From assembly GCA_015060925.1 (NCBI GenBank), contig SUXM01000023.1, forward strand, positions 1 to 40,853: DNA of 40,853 nucleotides. Reading direction: 5' to 3'. Source of the DNA: Parabacteroides distasonis. Its GTDB lineage: Bacteria > Bacteroidota > Bacteroidia > Bacteroidales > Tannerellaceae. Made by a program: the position numbers and the translations under genes. Positions 12,475-40,853 of the stretch are shown here, in pieces (the stretch's first letter is position 1; every line of letters begins with the position of its first letter). Below the pieces are notes generated by a model. The model made no database searches and was not told where the DNA came from. It saw nothing but the letters and a program-made list of their open reading frames with translations.

Positions 12475-13614
12475 ATGAAAACTTTTTTACCTTTTATTTT
12501 GTTTCTATGTTTATGCGCCTGTGGAGAAAAAGATTCACAGAGTATGCAGTTAAAGAAAAACGAGAAGAAAATTTCTTTGGAATTAGATGAAACTGTGAAA
12601 ACTTGTTCAAGGGCTCTTTATTTATATACCGATAAAGATGGGAAAGAGTACATCACTTTCCAAAATGATTTCAAGAATGAAATTTGTTTCTATGATTTCA
12701 AAACCCAAACATTGATGTTCAAATTCAAACAGGCTGTTGAGGGAAACAACGGAGTAGGGGGTGTTTTAGGATATTATATTCAAGATTTAAATCATATTTA
12801 TTTGACGTCAGATTTTAAAAGAGAGATTTATTTGGTGGATACTGCCGGAATTGTGAAAGAAAAGTTCCAATACAAAAAAACGATAGACGATATTCCCTTA
12901 TCAAGATCTTACTCTGCTACTTTTCGTTACCATCCTTTTGAAATAATCGATAATAAGATGTATGGAATATCGGGTTGTGATCGTAAAGTTGCATTCGACC
13001 CGATTAGTTTTACCATTGATTTGGAAACAAAAGAGGTTCGACACCTTCCGTTTGAGTATCTCACGCCTAAAACTGAAATCAATCCGGCTAAAAAGTCTGG
13101 TTCGGAAAATAGTTTTAGCCGAGAGTTCGATGGATCTCGTTTTATCTATTCTTTTTCTTACGAAGAAGATCTTTACATTGCTTCTATCGACCATCAAACA
13201 ATTACCCAAAAAACTGCCAAAAGCAAATATATTGAAAAATTGATTCCTTTTGATGATTTTGGGAATGTGACATTTGAAGGTGCTTGCGAACATGCTGAGT
13301 ATGGCAATCTTCTTTATGATAAATACCGGAATGTCTATTATCGGGTTGCTTTTCCGCAGACAGATGTCCCACATGACTTAAAGGATCGGGAGTATATGGA
13401 TTTGTTAGTTTATGGTCGAAAGACATTTTCGATCCTTGTTTTGGATAAAAATTTGGATATTATCGGTGAGACACAATTTCCGGATTACACCTATAATCCT
13501 ATGATGATGTTTGTCCACAAAGATGGTCTGTATATTTCTGCCAGCCATCCTTTCAATGAAGATTATTCGGATGATTGGCTCTATTTTCAATGCTTTGAGC
13601 TGGTAAAAGAGTAG
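12475..13614 (+). CDS. DUF4221-type beta-propeller lipoprotein (copy 1)
   Basis: A 379-aa predicted lipoprotein (lipobox LCAC, Cys16). The body looks like the Bacteroidales DUF4221/six-bladed propeller group: repeated beta-rich blades with YLYTDKDGKEYITFQN near the start, ISFTIDLETKEVRHLPFEY in the middle and PDYTYNPMMMFVHKDGLYIS near the end. No enzyme motif is evident. It is clearly paralogous to the lipoprotein at 37736-38890, matching along the whole length, including a 30-nt identical stretch (13141-13170 and 38417-38446). Unlike that copy, no NVEALA peptide gene precedes it. It has its own promoter and is followed by two strong hairpins. A sensor or receptor role is only an inference. 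Confidence 0.75.
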   Translation: MKTFLPFILFLCLCACGEKDSQSMQLKKNEKKISLELDETVKTCSRALYLYTDKDGKEYITFQNDFKNEICFYDFKTQTLMFKFKQAVEGNNGVGGVLGYYIQDLNHIYLTSDFKREIYLVDTAGIVKEKFQYKKTIDDIPLSRSYSATFRYHPFEIIDNKMYGISGCDRKVAFDPISFTIDLETKEVRHLPFEYLTPKTEINPAKKSGSENSFSREFDGSRFIYSFSYEEDLYIASIDHQTITQKTAKSKYIEKLIPFDDFGNVTFEGACEHAEYGNLLYDKYRNVYYRVAFPQTDVPHDLKDREYMDLLVYGRKTFSILVLDKNLDIIGETQFPDYTYNPMMMFVHKDGLYISASHPFNEDYSDDWLYFQCFELVKE

Positions 13615-36690: not shown

Positions 36691-36864
36691 TAATTGATAT
36701 TTTTTCTGCTATCTTTTCAATCATACCCGATACCCAACCAAACCATCAACTATACCAAAACGGCTATACTTTTATTATAATTAATCTTCATGTTTATTCT
36801 TTTTGTGGACATTTTGTTGACAAATAAGCGTTATTTAACTGAGAACCAATAATATATATATATC

Positions 36865-36917
36865 CGAAATTATTCCGAATAATTTTTAGTTAAATAAAAA
36901 ACTTCCAAATAACTTTG
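36865..36917 (+). promoter_or_regulatory. NVEALA-1 promoter with upstream element
   Basis: CGAAATTATTCCGA (36865-36878) is followed by TTTTTAGT (36883-36890) as a -33-like box, a 19-nt spacer and TAACTTTG (36910-36917), an exact -7 match. The same element, box and 19-nt spacing occur at 40061-40112 before the second copy. Confidence 0.7.
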
Positions 36918-36975
36918 CAAAGTCCGCTTATCTTGAAAACAATTTAATTACAAATTATAAACAAATTAAAAGAGT

Positions 36976-37206
36976 ATGATCAAGAAAATGTTGAAAGTCA
37001 CAGTTGCATTGGTCTGCACGGGCGGCATGTATCTGTTTACCCGTTCTTCTCAGTCGCAACCGTTAACCGATTTGACAAAAGCGAACATTGAAGCATTGGC
37101 ACAAGGGGAACAATTTAATGAAACTTTCATTTGTTTAGGAAGTGGGAATGTAGAGTGTAACGGTTCATTTGTCCAATATAAAATTTCAGGATATCATTTG
37201 AAGTAA
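36976..37206 (+). CDS. NVEALA-type exported micro-protein, copy 1 (NVEALA-1)
   Basis: A 76-aa protein of the Bacteroidales NVEALA family. The N-terminus is basic (IKKMLK), then a hydrophobic segment (VTVALVCTGGMYLF) that could be a signal or membrane anchor. LTDLTKANIEALAQGE carries the family motif, here NIEALA (37-42). A short tail follows with two Cys (C53 and C61, in ICLGSGNVECNGSF). The layout looks like a conserved leader plus a variable core, but processing is not shown. Function of the family is unknown. The gene has its own promoter and a conserved 3' hairpin, and it is nearly duplicated at 40155-40385. Confidence 0.85.
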   Translation: MIKKMLKVTVALVCTGGMYLFTRSSQSQPLTDLTKANIEALAQGEQFNETFICLGSGNVECNGSFVQYKISGYHLK

Positions 37207-37226
37207 CAAGATAAGGGAGAAAAGAA

Positions 37227-37271
37227 AGGAGTTTCTGTAAGTCTGTTCCACCGTTCTCAACAGAAACTCCT
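37227..37271 (+). repeat. 3' hairpin of NVEALA-1
   Basis: AGGAGTTTCTGT (37227-37238) and ACAGAAACTCCT (37260-37271) form a perfect 12-bp stem with a 21-nt loop. There is no T run after it, so it may not be a simple terminator. The second copy keeps the stem at 40426-40450. Confidence 0.8.
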
Positions 37272-37437
37272 GAAAATCTCCTCAGTGATTCACATCTAAA
37301 AAAGGAGGTACGGCAAAAATAGGTAATAAACAGCAAACAAAAAAGGAATGATGTATCCTTATTCTGAAAAGTGAAGAATAGTAACTTTTGAGGATGAACA
37401 CATAAAAAACAAACATTTATAAAAAATCAATTGAAAT

Positions 37438-37665
37438 ATGAAGAAAAAAGTAATTACTTTGGTTGCTGTGTGTATTATAGCTTTGGGAGTATATTGGAAT
37501 ATGAACCAAAATAAAGAGAAATCTTTCTTGAATTGTTTAACATTAGAAAATGTAGAAGCTATTGCTGCTTGTGAAGTTGGTTATGGTGGAAGCTGTTGGT
37601 TAAATGAATATAATCTTTTAGATTGTTGTACTCATGGGGGATTAGGATGTGCTCCTTGTGATTAA
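37438..37665 (+). CDS. NVEALA-type exported micro-protein with six-Cys tail (NVEALA-2)
   Basis: A 75-aa NVEALA-family protein, distinct from NVEALA-1. A basic start (MKKK) is followed by the hydrophobic segment VITLVAVCIIALGVYW, then LTLENVEAIA with the motif NVEAIA (38-43). The 32-residue tail holds six Cys (45, 53, 63, 64, 71, 74) and many Gly, which would suit a small disulfide-bonded or modified peptide. Only a loose -7-like TAACTTTTG (37382-37390) precedes it. It lies 70 bp ahead of the DUF4221-type lipoprotein on the same strand, with a hairpin between. The sequence is AT-rich. Confidence 0.82.
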   Translation: MKKKVITLVAVCIIALGVYWNMNQNKEKSFLNCLTLENVEAIAACEVGYGGSCWLNEYNLLDCCTHGGLGCAPCD

Positions 37666-37679
37666 TTTGTAATGAAACA

Positions 37680-37725
37680 GAATAGCTTAAGTACTTTTAT
37701 AAGTTTTGAGCTATTCTATTTTAAT
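37680..37725 (+). terminator. Hairpin between NVEALA-2 and the lipoprotein gene
   Basis: GAATAGCTTAAG (37680-37691) pairs with the stretch at 37705-37716 (ending GAGCTATTC) with G-U pairs, and is followed by the T-rich TATTTTAAT. It would end or reduce transcription from NVEALA-2 into the lipoprotein gene, possibly as an attenuator setting their ratio. Confidence 0.7.
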
Positions 37726-37735
37726 GTTATTTTGT

Positions 37736-38890
37736 ATGAAAACACAATTAATTATATTAATCTCATTTATAAGTTTTGTTTTATTTTCATCTTGCAAACA
37801 AAATTTCTCTTCTTATGATTATAAATTAAATAAAGCAGGTGAAGAAATAGCTTTTGCATTGGATGAAGATACAAAATCATTTTCACGAGCGACTTTTCTA
37901 TATACTGATAACGAAGGAAAGGAATACTTGACTTTTCAGAATAATTTTATGAATGATCTTATTTTTTATGATTTTGAAACTCGAAAGTTTGCTTTTAGAA
38001 TGAAACCTGAAATGGATGGAAAAAATGGAATTGGGAAAATGTTTGGTTATTATATAGCTGGTTGGGACAGTATTTATCTGACAAATAATGAAATAGAAGA
38101 AATTGCGATTATAGATACAGCATGTATATTAAAAGAACAGTTGGTCTATAATAAAACGATTGATGATATATCTTTGACAAGATCCCCTGCTTTTTCTTAT
38201 TATTATCGTCCTATGTATAAAATAGAAAATAAACTTTATGTAGTTTCAAGTTGTAACCGTAAATCAAAAGTTAATCCGATTAGTTTTACTATTGATTTAG
38301 AAACAAAGGAGGTAAAACATCTTCCATTTGAATATCCTAAATTACAAATAAAAATGAATCCTGCTAAAACTGCAGGTATAGAAAATCGTCTTAGTCGAGT
38401 ATTTGATGGAGAAAAGTTTATCTATTCTTTTTCTTACGAAGAAGATATTTATATAGCTTCTATTGATCACAAAATGGTTACAAGTAAAAAGGTTAAAAGT
38501 AAATATATAAAAGAGGTAAAGCCTGTGGATGATTATGGAAATTTTACGATAAAAGATATGTGTGAACATGCTGAATATGGGAATCTTTTATATGATCAAT
38601 ATAGAAAAGTTTATTACCGTATTGTTTTTCCTCAAACAGAAATCTTAAAAAGGTTAAATGATAGAGAATATTTGGATTTGATGCACTATGGTCGGAAATG
38701 CTTTTCAATTATCATTTTAGATGCAGATTTTAATATCATAGGTGAAACTCTTTTCCCTGATTATACTTATAATCCAACGATGGCATTTATTCGAGAAGAT
38801 GGTTTATATTTGTCTGCCAGTCATGCTTTCAATGAGAATTATTCTGATGATTGGTTGAAATTTCAGCGGTTTGAGTTAGTCAAAGAGTAA
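37736..38890 (+). CDS. DUF4221-type beta-propeller lipoprotein (copy 2)
   Basis: A 384-aa predicted lipoprotein (lipobox LFSSC, Cys20) from ATG 37736; the frame is open further upstream to 37706, but that would remove the clean signal peptide. It matches copy 1 (12475-13614) along its whole length: FLYTDNEGKEYLTFQNNF, ISFTIDLETKEVKHLPFEY, IYSFSYEEDIYIASIDH and PDYTYNPTMAFIREDGLYL. Repeated beta-rich units suggest a six-bladed propeller. No catalytic motif is seen. It follows NVEALA-2 closely, so a link with the peptide (binding, export or immunity) is a fair guess but untested. More AT-rich than copy 1. Confidence 0.75.
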   Translation: MKTQLIILISFISFVLFSSCKQNFSSYDYKLNKAGEEIAFALDEDTKSFSRATFLYTDNEGKEYLTFQNNFMNDLIFYDFETRKFAFRMKPEMDGKNGIGKMFGYYIAGWDSIYLTNNEIEEIAIIDTACILKEQLVYNKTIDDISLTRSPAFSYYYRPMYKIENKLYVVSSCNRKSKVNPISFTIDLETKEVKHLPFEYPKLQIKMNPAKTAGIENRLSRVFDGEKFIYSFSYEEDIYIASIDHKMVTSKKVKSKYIKEVKPVDDYGNFTIKDMCEHAEYGNLLYDQYRKVYYRIVFPQTEILKRLNDREYLDLMHYGRKCFSIIILDADFNIIGETLFPDYTYNPTMAFIREDGLYLSASHAFNENYSDDWLKFQRFELVKE

Positions 38891-38917
38891 TCTTGTTCTG
38901 TTTTCTCTGTTTCTTAA

Positions 38918-38947
38918 TTGTATATATAAATTAAACCGCTATATTTG
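38918..38947 (+). promoter_or_regulatory. Promoter of the Rpn-like gene
   Basis: TTG (38918-38920), a 19-nt spacer and TATATTTG (38940-38947) match the Bacteroidota -33/-7 layout. The ATG is at 39020, giving a 5' leader of roughly 65 nt. Confidence 0.65.
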
Positions 38948-39019
38948 TTACATATCTTCTTCTTTTAAAGAGAGGATAGAAGAAACTTAATTATTCATTA
39001 AAATACCAAAGCAATCACT

Positions 39020-39913
39020 ATGAAAGAGGTGAAGTTTATCGATCCGAAATCGGATTATGGCTTTAAGGTGCTGTTTGGCACAGTGGCAAACAAAGAGTTG
39101 ACAATCGGTTTTCTGAACAGTCTCTTGGACAAACAAATCAAGGACATTACGTTTCAGAATGTCGAGATGTGGGGAGAGAACAGCGGAAATACGAAAGTAA
39201 TCTTTGACTTTTTTTGTGAAACGGAGGATGGAGAGTGTTTCATCGTGGAGATCCAGAAGAAAAAACAGCAGTATTTTTCAGATCGGGTTTTGTATTATGC
39301 CTCTTTTGTCATTCAACGACAGGCACAGATGGAACGGAAACGTATCCAAACAGTATTTGGAAAAGGAAAGAAGCGTTGGGAATACCGGTTTAGTAAAGTA
39401 TATGTGGTCTGTTTCTTGGATTTCATCATGGATGCCCGTTACCCGGATAAATACCGTTGGGACATTGTCCGCATGGATCGAGAGTTGAAGGAACCGTTTA
39501 GTGACACACTGAATGAAATCTATTTGGAGCTGCCGAAGTTTAAGTTGGATTTTTCGGCTTGCGATACACCTTACAAGAAATTTTTATACATATTAAATCA
39601 TGTTGAGATTATGGGAGAGATACCAAAACATATTTGGGAGAATGATAACTTTTTGAAGAAGTTAAAGAGTGCGGTCGAGGTAGAACGGATGAGTTTGGAC
39701 GAGCGTTTGGCCTACGAATTGAGTTTATCGGTTGAACGAGATTGGTATGCCTGCATGGAATATCGCTATGAAGAAGGTGTAGAGAAAGGAAAGCAAGAAG
39801 GGAAACTTGAAGGTTTATACCAAACCGCCACCAACATGAAAAAGAGTGGTATTGATTTGCAAACAATTGTGAATTGTACAGGCTTAACTTTAGAAGAGGT
39901 AGAGAAGTTGTAA
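39020..39913 (+). CDS. Rpn-family PD-(D/E)XK nuclease (transposase-like)
   Basis: A 297-aa protein of the Rpn/PDDEXK_2 group, once annotated as transposases and shown in E. coli to promote RecA-independent recombination. It begins FIDPKSDYGFKVLFG, the family's start. The nuclease core has D63 (VIFDFFCETEDG) and the VEIQ strand (E77, Q79), the usual DxnExQ form. The C-terminus has a short charged repeat (EEGVEKGKQEGKLEG) and a terminal small helical segment (GLTLEEVEKL). No inverted repeats flank it, so it is not an insertion sequence. Its G+C is closer to that of housekeeping genes than to the AT-rich neighbours. It separates the two NVEALA modules. Confidence 0.88.
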   Translation: MKEVKFIDPKSDYGFKVLFGTVANKELTIGFLNSLLDKQIKDITFQNVEMWGENSGNTKVIFDFFCETEDGECFIVEIQKKKQQYFSDRVLYYASFVIQRQAQMERKRIQTVFGKGKKRWEYRFSKVYVVCFLDFIMDARYPDKYRWDIVRMDRELKEPFSDTLNEIYLELPKFKLDFSACDTPYKKFLYILNHVEIMGEIPKHIWENDNFLKKLKSAVEVERMSLDERLAYELSLSVERDWYACMEYRYEEGVEKGKQEGKLEGLYQTATNMKKSGIDLQTIVNCTGLTLEEVEKL

Positions 39914-39933
39914 GTAGAAGTAAAGAATAAGAG

Positions 39934-39974
39934 AAAAACGAGTGATTGTATTCGGTTTGATTACTCGTTTTTTT
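39934..39974 (+). terminator. Terminator after the Rpn-like gene
   Basis: AAAAACGAGT (39934-39943) and ACTCGTTTTT (39963-39972) form a hairpin with A and T tracts. Confidence 0.88.
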
Positions 39975-40060
39975 GTTTAAAAAATATAAAGTATTTATGT
40001 AAATATTTTGTCAATGCTATAGGTGTTATCTATTTGATAAATAGTTTTATATTATTTTTT

Positions 40061-40112
40061 CGAAATTATTCCGACTTTTTTTACTGAAATAAGAGATGAA
40101 AAAATACTTTTG
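40061..40112 (+). promoter_or_regulatory. NVEALA-1' promoter with the same upstream element
   Basis: CGAAATTATTCCGA (40061-40074), TTTTTACT (40078-40085), a 19-nt spacer and TACTTTTG (40105-40112) repeat the layout seen before NVEALA-1. Confidence 0.7.
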
Positions 40113-40154
40113 CATTGAAAATAATTCGGGCACAAATATATAAAAATGAAAAGT

Positions 40155-40385
40155 ATGATTAAAAAAATGTTGAGAATCACAGTTGCATTGGTCTGCATGG
40201 GCGGCATGTATCTGTTTACCCGTTCTTCTCAGTCGCAACCGTTAACCGATTTGACAAAAGCAAACATCGAAGCATTAGCACAGGAGGAACAATTTAATGA
40301 AAATTTTATTTGTTTAGGAAGTGGGAATGTGGAGTGTAACGGTTCGTTTGCCCAATATAAAATTTTAGGATATCATTTGAAGTAA
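40155..40385 (+). CDS. NVEALA-type exported micro-protein, second copy of NVEALA-1
   Basis: A 76-aa protein that differs from NVEALA-1 at only nine or so residues. It has the same basic and hydrophobic leader, the same DLTKANIEALA motif, and the same two-Cys tail (FICLGSGNVECNGSFAQYK). The start ATG 40155 is the counterpart of that used in copy 1; an in-frame ATG at 40146 would add MKS. DNA identity with copy 1 is about 93% over roughly 296 bp by hand count, continuing through the stop into the 3' hairpin. It is followed by a propeller lipoprotein gene of a different family than copy 1's neighbour. Confidence 0.85.
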   Translation: MIKKMLRITVALVCMGGMYLFTRSSQSQPLTDLTKANIEALAQEEQFNENFICLGSGNVECNGSFAQYKILGYHLK

Positions 40386-40425
40386 CAAGATAAGGGAGAA
40401 AAGAAAGGAGTTTCTGCAAGTCTGT

Positions 40426-40450
40426 TCTACCGTCCTCTACAGAAACTTCT
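40426..40450 (+). repeat. 3' hairpin of the second NVEALA-1 copy
   Basis: AGGAGTTTCTG (40426-40436) pairs with CAGAAACTTCT (40440-40450 region); the single change from copy 1 in the stem (C to T) leaves a G-U pair, so pairing is kept while loop bases differ. Confidence 0.7.
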
Positions 40451-40491
40451 TGGTAATATTTAAATTAAAAATAGAATAAAAGGGAATGTGT

Positions 40492-40499
40492 TATATTTG
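40492..40499 (+). promoter_or_regulatory. -7 promoter box for the TolB-like propeller lipoprotein
   Basis: TATATTTG matches TAnnTTTG exactly, about 37 nt before the ATG at 40537; no clear -33 box. Confidence 0.5.
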
Positions 40500-40536
40500 A
40501 AAAATTATGGCATATTCTCCTAAATAACGATTATTT

Positions 40537-40853
40537 ATGAATAAAACTTTTTATTTCTTACTTCTTATAATTTTGATAGGTTGTGTATCAAAAAATGACA
40601 TAGAAAAATATCAAGGTAGTAGAAATAATATCGTAAATGTTAAAACTGAAGTCAAAGAAATTGTGATAGACGAAGTTTTGATAGGATCTTTAGTCCGTTT
40701 AGATATATTAAATGATTGGTTGATTATTCATGATTGTGCTTCTTTAGATACGTTGATTCATGTTTTTGATAAAAATAATTTTACCCGTGTAGGTAAGACT
40801 GCGATTCGTGGAGAAGGTCCAAAGGAAATTACCAATATGGGAAATATTATTAT
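40537..40853 (+). CDS. TolB-like six-bladed propeller lipoprotein, 3' end missing
   Basis: The frame opens at ATG 40537 and is still open at the window end, giving 105 visible residues. The N-terminus is a lipoprotein signal (NKTFYFLLLIILIGC, Cys16). The following strands (GSLVRLDILNDWLIIHDC, then LIHVFDKNNFTRVGK) and the motif RGEGPKEITNMGNI match the first blade of Bacteroidales TolB-like/BF3164-type six-bladed propeller lipoproteins, which share a GxGPxE motif. It is distinct from the DUF4221-type lipoproteins. It follows the second NVEALA-1 copy by 151 nt. Family call is fairly good; role unknown. Confidence 0.7.
   Translation, partial: MNKTFYFLLLIILIGCVSKNDIEKYQGSRNNIVNVKTEVKEIVIDEVLIGSLVRLDILNDWLIIHDCASLDTLIHVFDKNNFTRVGKTAIRGEGPKEITNMGNII

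Follow-up and report, generated by a model that had tools for sequence, protein, structure and literature searches.

We analyzed a stretch of 40,853 bases from Parabacteroides distasonis (assembly GCA_015060925.1, contig SUXM01000023.1, our contig C11; hereafter the window, which ends where the contig ends). Open reading frames (ORFs) and Pfam matches at its 3' end gave the gene order NVEALA-NVEALA-DUF4221-Rpn/PDDEXK_2-NVEALA-propeller lipoprotein, as noted in an original prediction made from the sequence alone. NVEALA (PF14055) is, to our knowledge, a named family without an assigned function. Comparison with relatives suggests that its genes encode polymorphic disulfide peptides with cognate propellers, exported and matured by a dedicated system whose most likely use is competition between bacteria; we give this reading a probability of about 0.6. 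It builds on what the sequences show directly, namely which genes recur and in what order, how tails and propellers vary in concert, where the cassette has its boundary, the mostly even cysteine counts and the AxA site of the leader, and from these we infer cleavage by an S26 signal peptidase, disulfide formation, binding, an input to the regulator and the competitive role. The system is larger than the window shows, as it also includes a regulator, a thioredoxin-fold lipoprotein, the signal peptidase, and transglutaminase-like and O-antigen-ligase-like genes. The window is a partial, rearranged copy of it.

NVEALA matches over the Pfam cut-off were found in 38 of the 66 genomes searched from the same family, in 6 of 148 drawn from the order (the source genome of the window included) and in 1 of 148 drawn from the phylum (that genome itself); NVEALA is rare outside the family. 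Eight genomes were surveyed for propeller matches within 2 kb of an NVEALA gene, the preset check of the original prediction. TolB_like matches lay this close in 29 of 36 cases against 0.35 expected (36 of 53 were used, those below the cut-off being omitted), DUF4221 matches in 8 of 15 against 0.19 (15 of 16, as two overlapping matches in genome G174 were counted once) and DUF5128 matches in 17 of 92 against 0.56 (the best 92 of 147, down to E = 2.6e-16). Conversely, 59 of the 68 NVEALA genes had a propeller within 2 kb (one NVEALA match each from G164, G170 and G172 being left out), and so the predicted enrichment was found. Adjacency of the two gene types exceeds chance; the P-values of the enrichment take clustered genes as independent.

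We then compared 51 NVEALA stretches from 38 genomes, the source genome included, which were hand-picked from search tables rather than drawn at random, with 20 control stretches of 20 kb placed at round coordinates of large contigs. Using profiles seeded from cluster propellers of the source genome, propellers were present in 51 of 51 NVEALA stretches; the 20 controls contained no NVEALA, propeller, S26, transglutaminase-like or O-antigen-ligase-like gene. One propeller profile (A7, from 13 cluster propellers) matched the NHL repeats of Thin and TRIM2 in the PDB (E = 2.6e-15 to 7.8e-15, the best stretch covering about 70–80 of 351 positions, with neither window propeller in the profile), and in sequence the cluster lipoproteins of this profile thus resemble solved six-bladed NHL-type propellers.

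The type B tail and its downstream propeller

A hand-written C-x7-C tail pattern, later tightened, divided 121 NVEALA ORFs into 27 of type A and 94 of type B, in which the tail is hypervariable and its cysteines are paired. Five hits to the pattern (in loci L121, L131, L133 and L140, one apiece, and the window gene at 37438) were reassigned to type B on inspection, and two regulator-adjacent genes (L030 and L139) that are type A-like are scored as type B by the final pattern. The gene after type B was a propeller in 85 of 94 cases, another type B gene in 4, a thioredoxin-fold lipoprotein in 1 and another gene in 1, with the stretch ending in the remaining 3. This supports the peptide-plus-propeller-lipoprotein system of the original prediction.

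In comparisons between genomes, similarity of type B tails tracked similarity of the propellers downstream of them (r = 0.604 over 84 pairs, one short-tailed pair being omitted from the 85; within-genome shuffles gave a mean of 0.191, with 0 of 1000 as high). The leaders of the same genes gave r = 0.095 (shuffles 0.070, 35 of 1000 as high). For 43 genes with propellers on both sides, tail correlation was 0.774 with the downstream propeller versus 0.103 with the upstream one, and 0.347 versus 0.037 once near-identical pairs had been removed. DNA comparisons of paralogs pointed the same way. In L123 and L101, paralogs had 87–100% identity between about −180 and +90 and dropped to near background over the tail, and in other pairs identity was limited to the leader and a shorter upstream part. 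The reverse mosaic was seen between L109 and L118, in which the upstream region and most of the leader were 35–74% identical and the tail and propeller start 84–98%. Because these identity profiles break near the end of the leader, tail and propeller appear to be inherited as one unit, which behaves as a swappable cassette. The type B tail would then be matched by the propeller encoded directly downstream, and the pair would move behind a conserved leader. Inheritance as a unit falls short of proof of binding.

The distinct type B tails are about 31–57 aa long (10th to 90th percentile), and 81 of 89 have an even number of cysteines, where a simple model expects 50%. It is very unlikely that these small exported proteins and lipoproteins co-travel through linkage and duplication without any joint action. 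Concordance between neighbors requires no interaction, and displaced copies are present in the window, but the upstream propeller, at a median gap of 298 bases versus 85 downstream, shows no concordance. Linkage alone is also at odds with the cysteine parity, with the co-occurrence of a system-type S26, a transglutaminase-like gene and the regulator, and with recurrence on plasmids of another family (below).

Alignment of 77 propellers left few columns conserved at 70% or more, namely the start Met, the lipid Cys, a Gly-Gly-Pro-Glu stretch and two further Pro, and no conserved catalytic residue set stood out among them. This weighs against the propeller being a peptide-specific maturation factor or chaperone, rather than an immunity protein or receptor. 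Gene order and tail specificity would fit such a factor, and 55 of 153 propellers had no NVEALA gene directly upstream (4 of them at a stretch edge), as a broader processing role would predict; overall we consider it unlikely.

Predicted leader cleavage, putative maturation genes and the type A regulator

A leader motif pattern was found in 117 of 121 NVEALA proteins, with Ala at −3 in 116 of 117 and at −1 in 116 of 117, counts which are partly true by definition, as the pattern favors Ala and the family name reflects the motif. Ala-Leu-Ala at the end of the leader is a signal peptidase I site. Beyond it, position +3 is Glu in 26 of 26 distinct tails of type A and in 81 of 89 of type B. Sec would insert the precursor by way of its N-terminal hydrophobic segment, and a system-specific S26 peptidase would cleave after Ala-Leu-Ala, releasing the Cys-rich tail. 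The leader thus has ALA, and no double glycine, at its end. None of the three families recurring in at least four genomes within 5 kb of NVEALA is an ATP-binding cassette (ABC) transporter, and the pairing of a double-glycine leader end with a C39-peptidase ABC transporter, which marks GG-leader/PCAT bacteriocins, was not found.

Those three families are a transglutaminase-like lipoprotein (23 of 38 genomes), the S26 peptidase (15) and an O-antigen-ligase-like protein with tetratricopeptide repeats (12); some of the stretches behind these counts end at contig ends. A thioredoxin-fold/DUF1573 lipoprotein was present in 28 of 51 NVEALA stretches (one weak control match, at 47 bits in L086, was left out of the counts). 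Both cluster S26 proteins tested matched PF10502 (E = 1.8e-32 and 3e-30). Ser and Lys are the catalytic residues of S26 signal peptidases, and Ser51 and Lys125 were invariant in 10 of 10. All 8 NVEALA genomes searched had a full-length S26 of the system type, against none of 4 hand-chosen genomes lacking NVEALA, and this S26 is distinct from the housekeeping signal peptidases. Of three transglutaminase-like proteins compared with PF01841, that of L105 scored over the cut-off (24.6 versus 23 bits), that of L101 below it and that of L135 gave no match, whilst Cys238 and His271 were invariant in 10 of 10. Across the 66 genomes, 32 had both this gene and NVEALA, 6 NVEALA only, 4 the gene only and 24 neither (Fisher's exact test, P = 1e-8).

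The arrangement is seen in a P. distasonis strain at the 9.4-kb locus L166, which runs regulator, type A, propeller, thioredoxin-fold lipoprotein, type B, propeller, S26, transglutaminase-like gene and start of the O-antigen-ligase-like gene (names assigned by comparison with L105). Disulfides would be handled by the thioredoxin-fold/DUF1573 lipoprotein, and the transglutaminase-like and O-antigen-ligase-like proteins may act on the product or its attachment. The recurrence of these last two genes in clusters could also mean that the peptides stay with the cell and decorate or anchor a surface glycan, their variation being driven by phage or host. This is quite unlikely, since by itself it leaves the tail-specific partner unexplained.

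The gene set also occurs on plasmids. One from Phocaeicola vulgatus carries NVEALA, propeller, redoxin, lepB, O-antigen ligase and transglutaminase genes (PGAP names). On a Phocaeicola massiliensis plasmid (OY726023.1; L179:308-9990) five NVEALA-propeller pairs follow one another, with nearly the same leaders and five different tails. No mobile copy of the window DNA itself was found: it had no match in plasmids, and the type B protein had no match in phages. A gene set for a resistance-nodulation-division (RND) pump, a TolC-like protein and a fusion protein follows the maturation genes in the source genome (L175:1-6168) and on the P. massiliensis plasmid (L179:14317-20891). Close relatives of this operon, which often lies beyond the O-antigen-ligase-like gene, were seen at the end of 9 of 40 relative stretches, on contig C4 of the source genome and on that plasmid. 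Relatives of at least 59% identity, broken matches counted, were present in 37 of 38 NVEALA genomes and in 21 of 28 without NVEALA; this leaves the RND operon unsupported as part of the system, and it may be a shared anchor locus.

Type A genes lay divergent from a regulator gene, within 700 bp, in 21 of 27 cases; the others were one in L029, two in L031, one in L107 (2 kb away) and the two window copies. A propeller followed type A directly in 15 of 27. In the regulator, two transmembrane (TM) segments (assigned by eye), the first of them N-terminal, flank a periplasmic part, and an OmpR-type winged helix makes up the C-terminal end. Pfam Trans_reg_C was found in three of four regulators tested, over the cut-off in one, and profile matches in the PDB include the "Cholera toxin transcriptional activator" and CadC domains. 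A profile built from 27 regulators beside or near NVEALA found 55 places in 28 of the 66 genomes. Among the regulator hits, response regulators at L129, L138 and, in a control stretch, L099 were left out, as was a fragment at L109 16525. Among 59 regulator ORFs, 41 had an NVEALA gene, nearly always of type A, in divergent orientation at 700 bp or less; the count was 40 of 55 places after a duplicated stretch and fragments had been removed and one edge-cut case added. In several of the remaining cases the divergent neighbor instead resembled a propeller lipoprotein (L149, L150, L151, L152 and L162 among them) or, at L158, the thioredoxin-fold lipoprotein (both read from sequence). NVEALA was found in 26 of 28 regulator-bearing genomes versus 12 of 38 without the regulator (P = 3e-7).

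In the main reading, type A would be a constant peptide whose gene diverges from that of the winged-helix regulator with its two TM segments; this regulator probably has the operon under its control, and it may detect the peptide or the export of the peptide. Over 37 pairs, type A tail similarity correlated with that of the periplasmic part of the regulator (r = 0.653, shuffles 0.432, 0 of 1000 as high) and with that of the DNA-binding part (r = 0.587, shuffles 0.396, 1 of 1000 as high). Mean tail similarity between genomes was 0.347 for type A and 0.120 for type B, a difference that is partly by definition since type A was picked by pattern. The slightly closer tracking of the periplasmic part, the usual divergent type A neighbor and the likeness of type A tails between genomes, as of a constant signal (here again partly by definition), would all suit peptide signaling, with the tails as signals, the propellers as receptors or periplasmic sensors, and type A as autoinducer of the regulator. 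Linkage alone could produce the type A-regulator correlation, however, some regulators lack a divergent NVEALA gene, and several type B tails per cluster exceed what signaling needs. We regard this as possible but rather improbable.

A probable competitive role and known systems

In the competitive reading the tail would be the effector and the propeller the producer's own protection, in competition between related bacteria. We favor it over signaling because one cluster holds several different tails, because tails seldom lack a downstream propeller while many propellers lack an upstream NVEALA gene, and because variation concentrates in the tail and its partner. A broader proposal is an unrecognised Bacteroidales secretion and maturation system in which propellers neutralize or receive recombining peptides and the regulator reads type A, serving self-recognition as well as competition among gut Bacteroidales and borne by both chromosomes and plasmids; it is less probable, and we offer it tentatively.

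Several observations speak against the main reading, for which the case is argued from sequence. Co-inheritance alone could yield the tail-propeller concordance, as both lie on the same side of the leader recombination boundary. With a median net charge of −2, type B tails are anionic, which many antibacterial peptides are not. S26, transglutaminase-like and O-antigen-ligase-like genes lie near NVEALA in 15, 23 and 12 of 38 genomes rather than in all; the transglutaminase-like gene is missing from 6 of 38 NVEALA genomes and is present, whole or as a piece, in 4 of 28 genomes without NVEALA. Similarly, 12 of 38 NVEALA genomes have no regulator at E = 1e-30, and at 15 of 55 regulator places (two at a stretch edge) a divergent NVEALA gene is missing from the nearest 700 bp. 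No dedicated outer-membrane exporter was established, the RND candidate being common where NVEALA is absent. The anionic tails and the patchy occurrence of S26, transglutaminase-like, O-antigen-ligase-like and regulator genes are the main doubts.

Polymorphic toxin-immunity cassettes have a conserved N-terminal part, an exchangeable C-terminal part, a matching downstream partner and partner orphans. NVEALA likewise has a variable C-terminal part with its own partner directly downstream, and by analogy a tail would harm a cell without that partner. However, what varies here is a disulfide-type peptide of about 31–57 aa, its partner belongs to the NHL-like propeller lipoproteins, and the clusters bring along genes of their own for a signal peptidase and for transglutaminase-like and O-antigen-ligase-like proteins. 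Heat-stable enterotoxins, for example, are disulfide peptides that are exported by Sec and reach their mature form in the periplasm. The order proposed for NVEALA (Sec, leader cleavage, disulfide formation, release) would resemble theirs, but a dedicated protease and partner proteins set the NVEALA system apart. As in membrane-bound one-component regulators such as ToxR and CadC, the cluster regulator has an OmpR-type winged helix in a membrane protein, although its DNA-binding domain is C-terminal, after the second TM segment, with the periplasmic part between the two. The regulator may respond to the peptide, a suggestion based on divergent gene order and sequence concordance.

Bacteroidetocins are class IIa-like peptide toxins of Bacteroidales (PMC6671954, PMC8546649). 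They are small and secreted, as proposed for NVEALA peptides, and share with them a leader-plus-core layout; NVEALA differs in that its leader ends in ALA, many clusters have an S26 gene, and there is no ABC transporter among the recurrent neighbors within 5 kb. The PGAP names in NZ_CP096966.1 (NVEALA domain-containing, 6-bladed beta-propeller, BF3164 family lipoprotein) denote the same families, annotated singly. No paper with the words NVEALA or DUF4221 was found in the library searched, and of five matches to "PF14055" four were, by title, Plasmodium work and one dealt with enzyme profiles. Literature listings on bacteriocins and peptide pheromones, on propeller lipoproteins and NHL immunity, and on maturation genes contained nothing that we recognised as the NVEALA system. 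The NVEALA-propeller gene system is apparently undescribed so far. Its clusters make NVEALA testable, since they offer a cut site, a protease, a partner for each tail and a neighboring regulator. If competition or recognition is its role, the system would influence the coexistence of Parabacteroides and Phocaeicola strains in the gut, and the tails would amount to an extensive natural collection of disulfide peptides, for which matched binders exist as well.

Copies in the window and the rest of the genome

The NVEALA and lipoprotein genes, repeats, boxes and hairpin of the window described here are all on the forward strand. The three NVEALA genes, at 36976–37206, 37438–37665 and 40146–40385, matched PF14055 with E = 6.5e-12, 5.9e-9 and 3.2e-12 (45.4, 36 and 46.4 bits; cut-off 27), and no further NVEALA match was found in the window. 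The first encodes 76 aa and is of type A, with a C-x7-C tail. Upstream of it, on the reverse strand, lies a regulator gene stump (36720–36791) of 24 codons from the start of the gene, codon 13 being followed by an in-frame stop; its translation matches the start of the intact regulator at locus L025 of the same genome, and the ORF list contained no long ORF continuing it. An operator-like repeat at 36864–36878 is common to L025 and to a second copy at 40061–40074. TAnnTTTG boxes, which we take to be the Bacteroidota −7 element, lie 5' of the two type A genes (36910–36917 and 40105–40112). The promoter region of the first type A gene is almost the same as that of L025. Repeat and box recur at the second type A copy, beside which the alignment showed no regulator stump. 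Judged by sequence, both type A copies are orphans, the first retaining a dead regulator stump. The repeat may serve regulator binding, and since this operator is common to the window copies and L025, control of the former in trans by the L025 regulator is suggested.

The type B gene (75 aa; leader end EAIA, Cys-rich tail) is followed by the DUF4221 lipoprotein at 37736–38890 (384 aa from the ATG at 37736; PF13970, E = 1.3e-41, 143.7 bits against a cut-off of 23.4), of which PDB 3s9j ("Member of DUF4221 family") is a solved relative (E = 4.7e-29). A tail akin to this one was found in L115 together with a propeller that has 45% identity to the window DUF4221 protein, and the two window genes look like a normal pair. 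The original description of two tandem modules was therefore loose: the genes are present, but the partner of DUF4221 is the second NVEALA protein, of type B, and not the first. The third NVEALA gene stands before the propeller lipoprotein at 40537–40853, of which the first 105 aa are present, the contig ending inside the gene (PF15869 TolB_like, E = 0.011, 15.6 bits, below the cut-off of 29.2 on this partial protein). Its six best relatives among cluster propellers were 41–50% identical over 99–107 aa, and five of them come after NVEALA genes with a CPNGC-type tail. As the relatives of this propeller mostly follow that other tail class, the 40146 gene reads as a displaced type A copy and the pair as a mosaic, not a cognate pair. 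The modular pairing once inferred here is thus borne out by the tail-propeller concordance of type B and not by the genes that inspired it, the near-identical peptides being type A orphans. The argument from different propeller families beside near-identical peptides is not supported either, as type A elsewhere mostly adjoins the regulator.

A hairpin at 37227–37271, directly after the stop of the first type A gene, had z = −3.7; the value was 0.3 after the second copy and near 0 after many other type A genes. A hairpin after type A is present in copies of this genome and is not general, and these values do not support a conserved terminator or attenuator.

The draft genome from which the window comes (2.54 Mb) has 24 NVEALA places. 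Contigs C40, C29, C24 and C11 stop within about 520 bases of one, in the manner expected of repeats. Contigs C4 and C5 likewise terminate in or beside propeller genes, so that the order of the loci in the assembly is provisional. On C4, thioredoxin-fold, S26, transglutaminase-like and O-antigen-ligase-like genes are consecutive (the last read at its end only), and the window peptides would rely on these maturation genes.

A second DUF4221 lipoprotein lies at 12475–13614 in the window (PF13970 match at 12547–13476), with no NVEALA gene in front; this orphan is 57–58% identical to the protein at 37736–38890. The Rpn/PDDEXK_2 gene at 39020–39913 (PF12784, E = 5.1e-47) is one of three such genes or fragments adjoining displaced NVEALA or DUF4221 copies, the others being L029:4677-5642 and L177:7803-8156 (recognised by eye from near-identical sequence), as if they had been duplicated together. 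On contig C5, a lipoprotein at L176:9116-10186 overlaps a TolB_like match and has a signal peptide that is almost an NVEALA leader, with Cys replacing Trp; in sequence it looks like a leader-propeller gene fusion. A truncated NVEALA ORF lies at L176:11232-11372. In another NVEALA cluster of this genome, a 72-aa ORF (L026:10526-10744) resembles the start of the transglutaminase-like gene and is apparently truncated.

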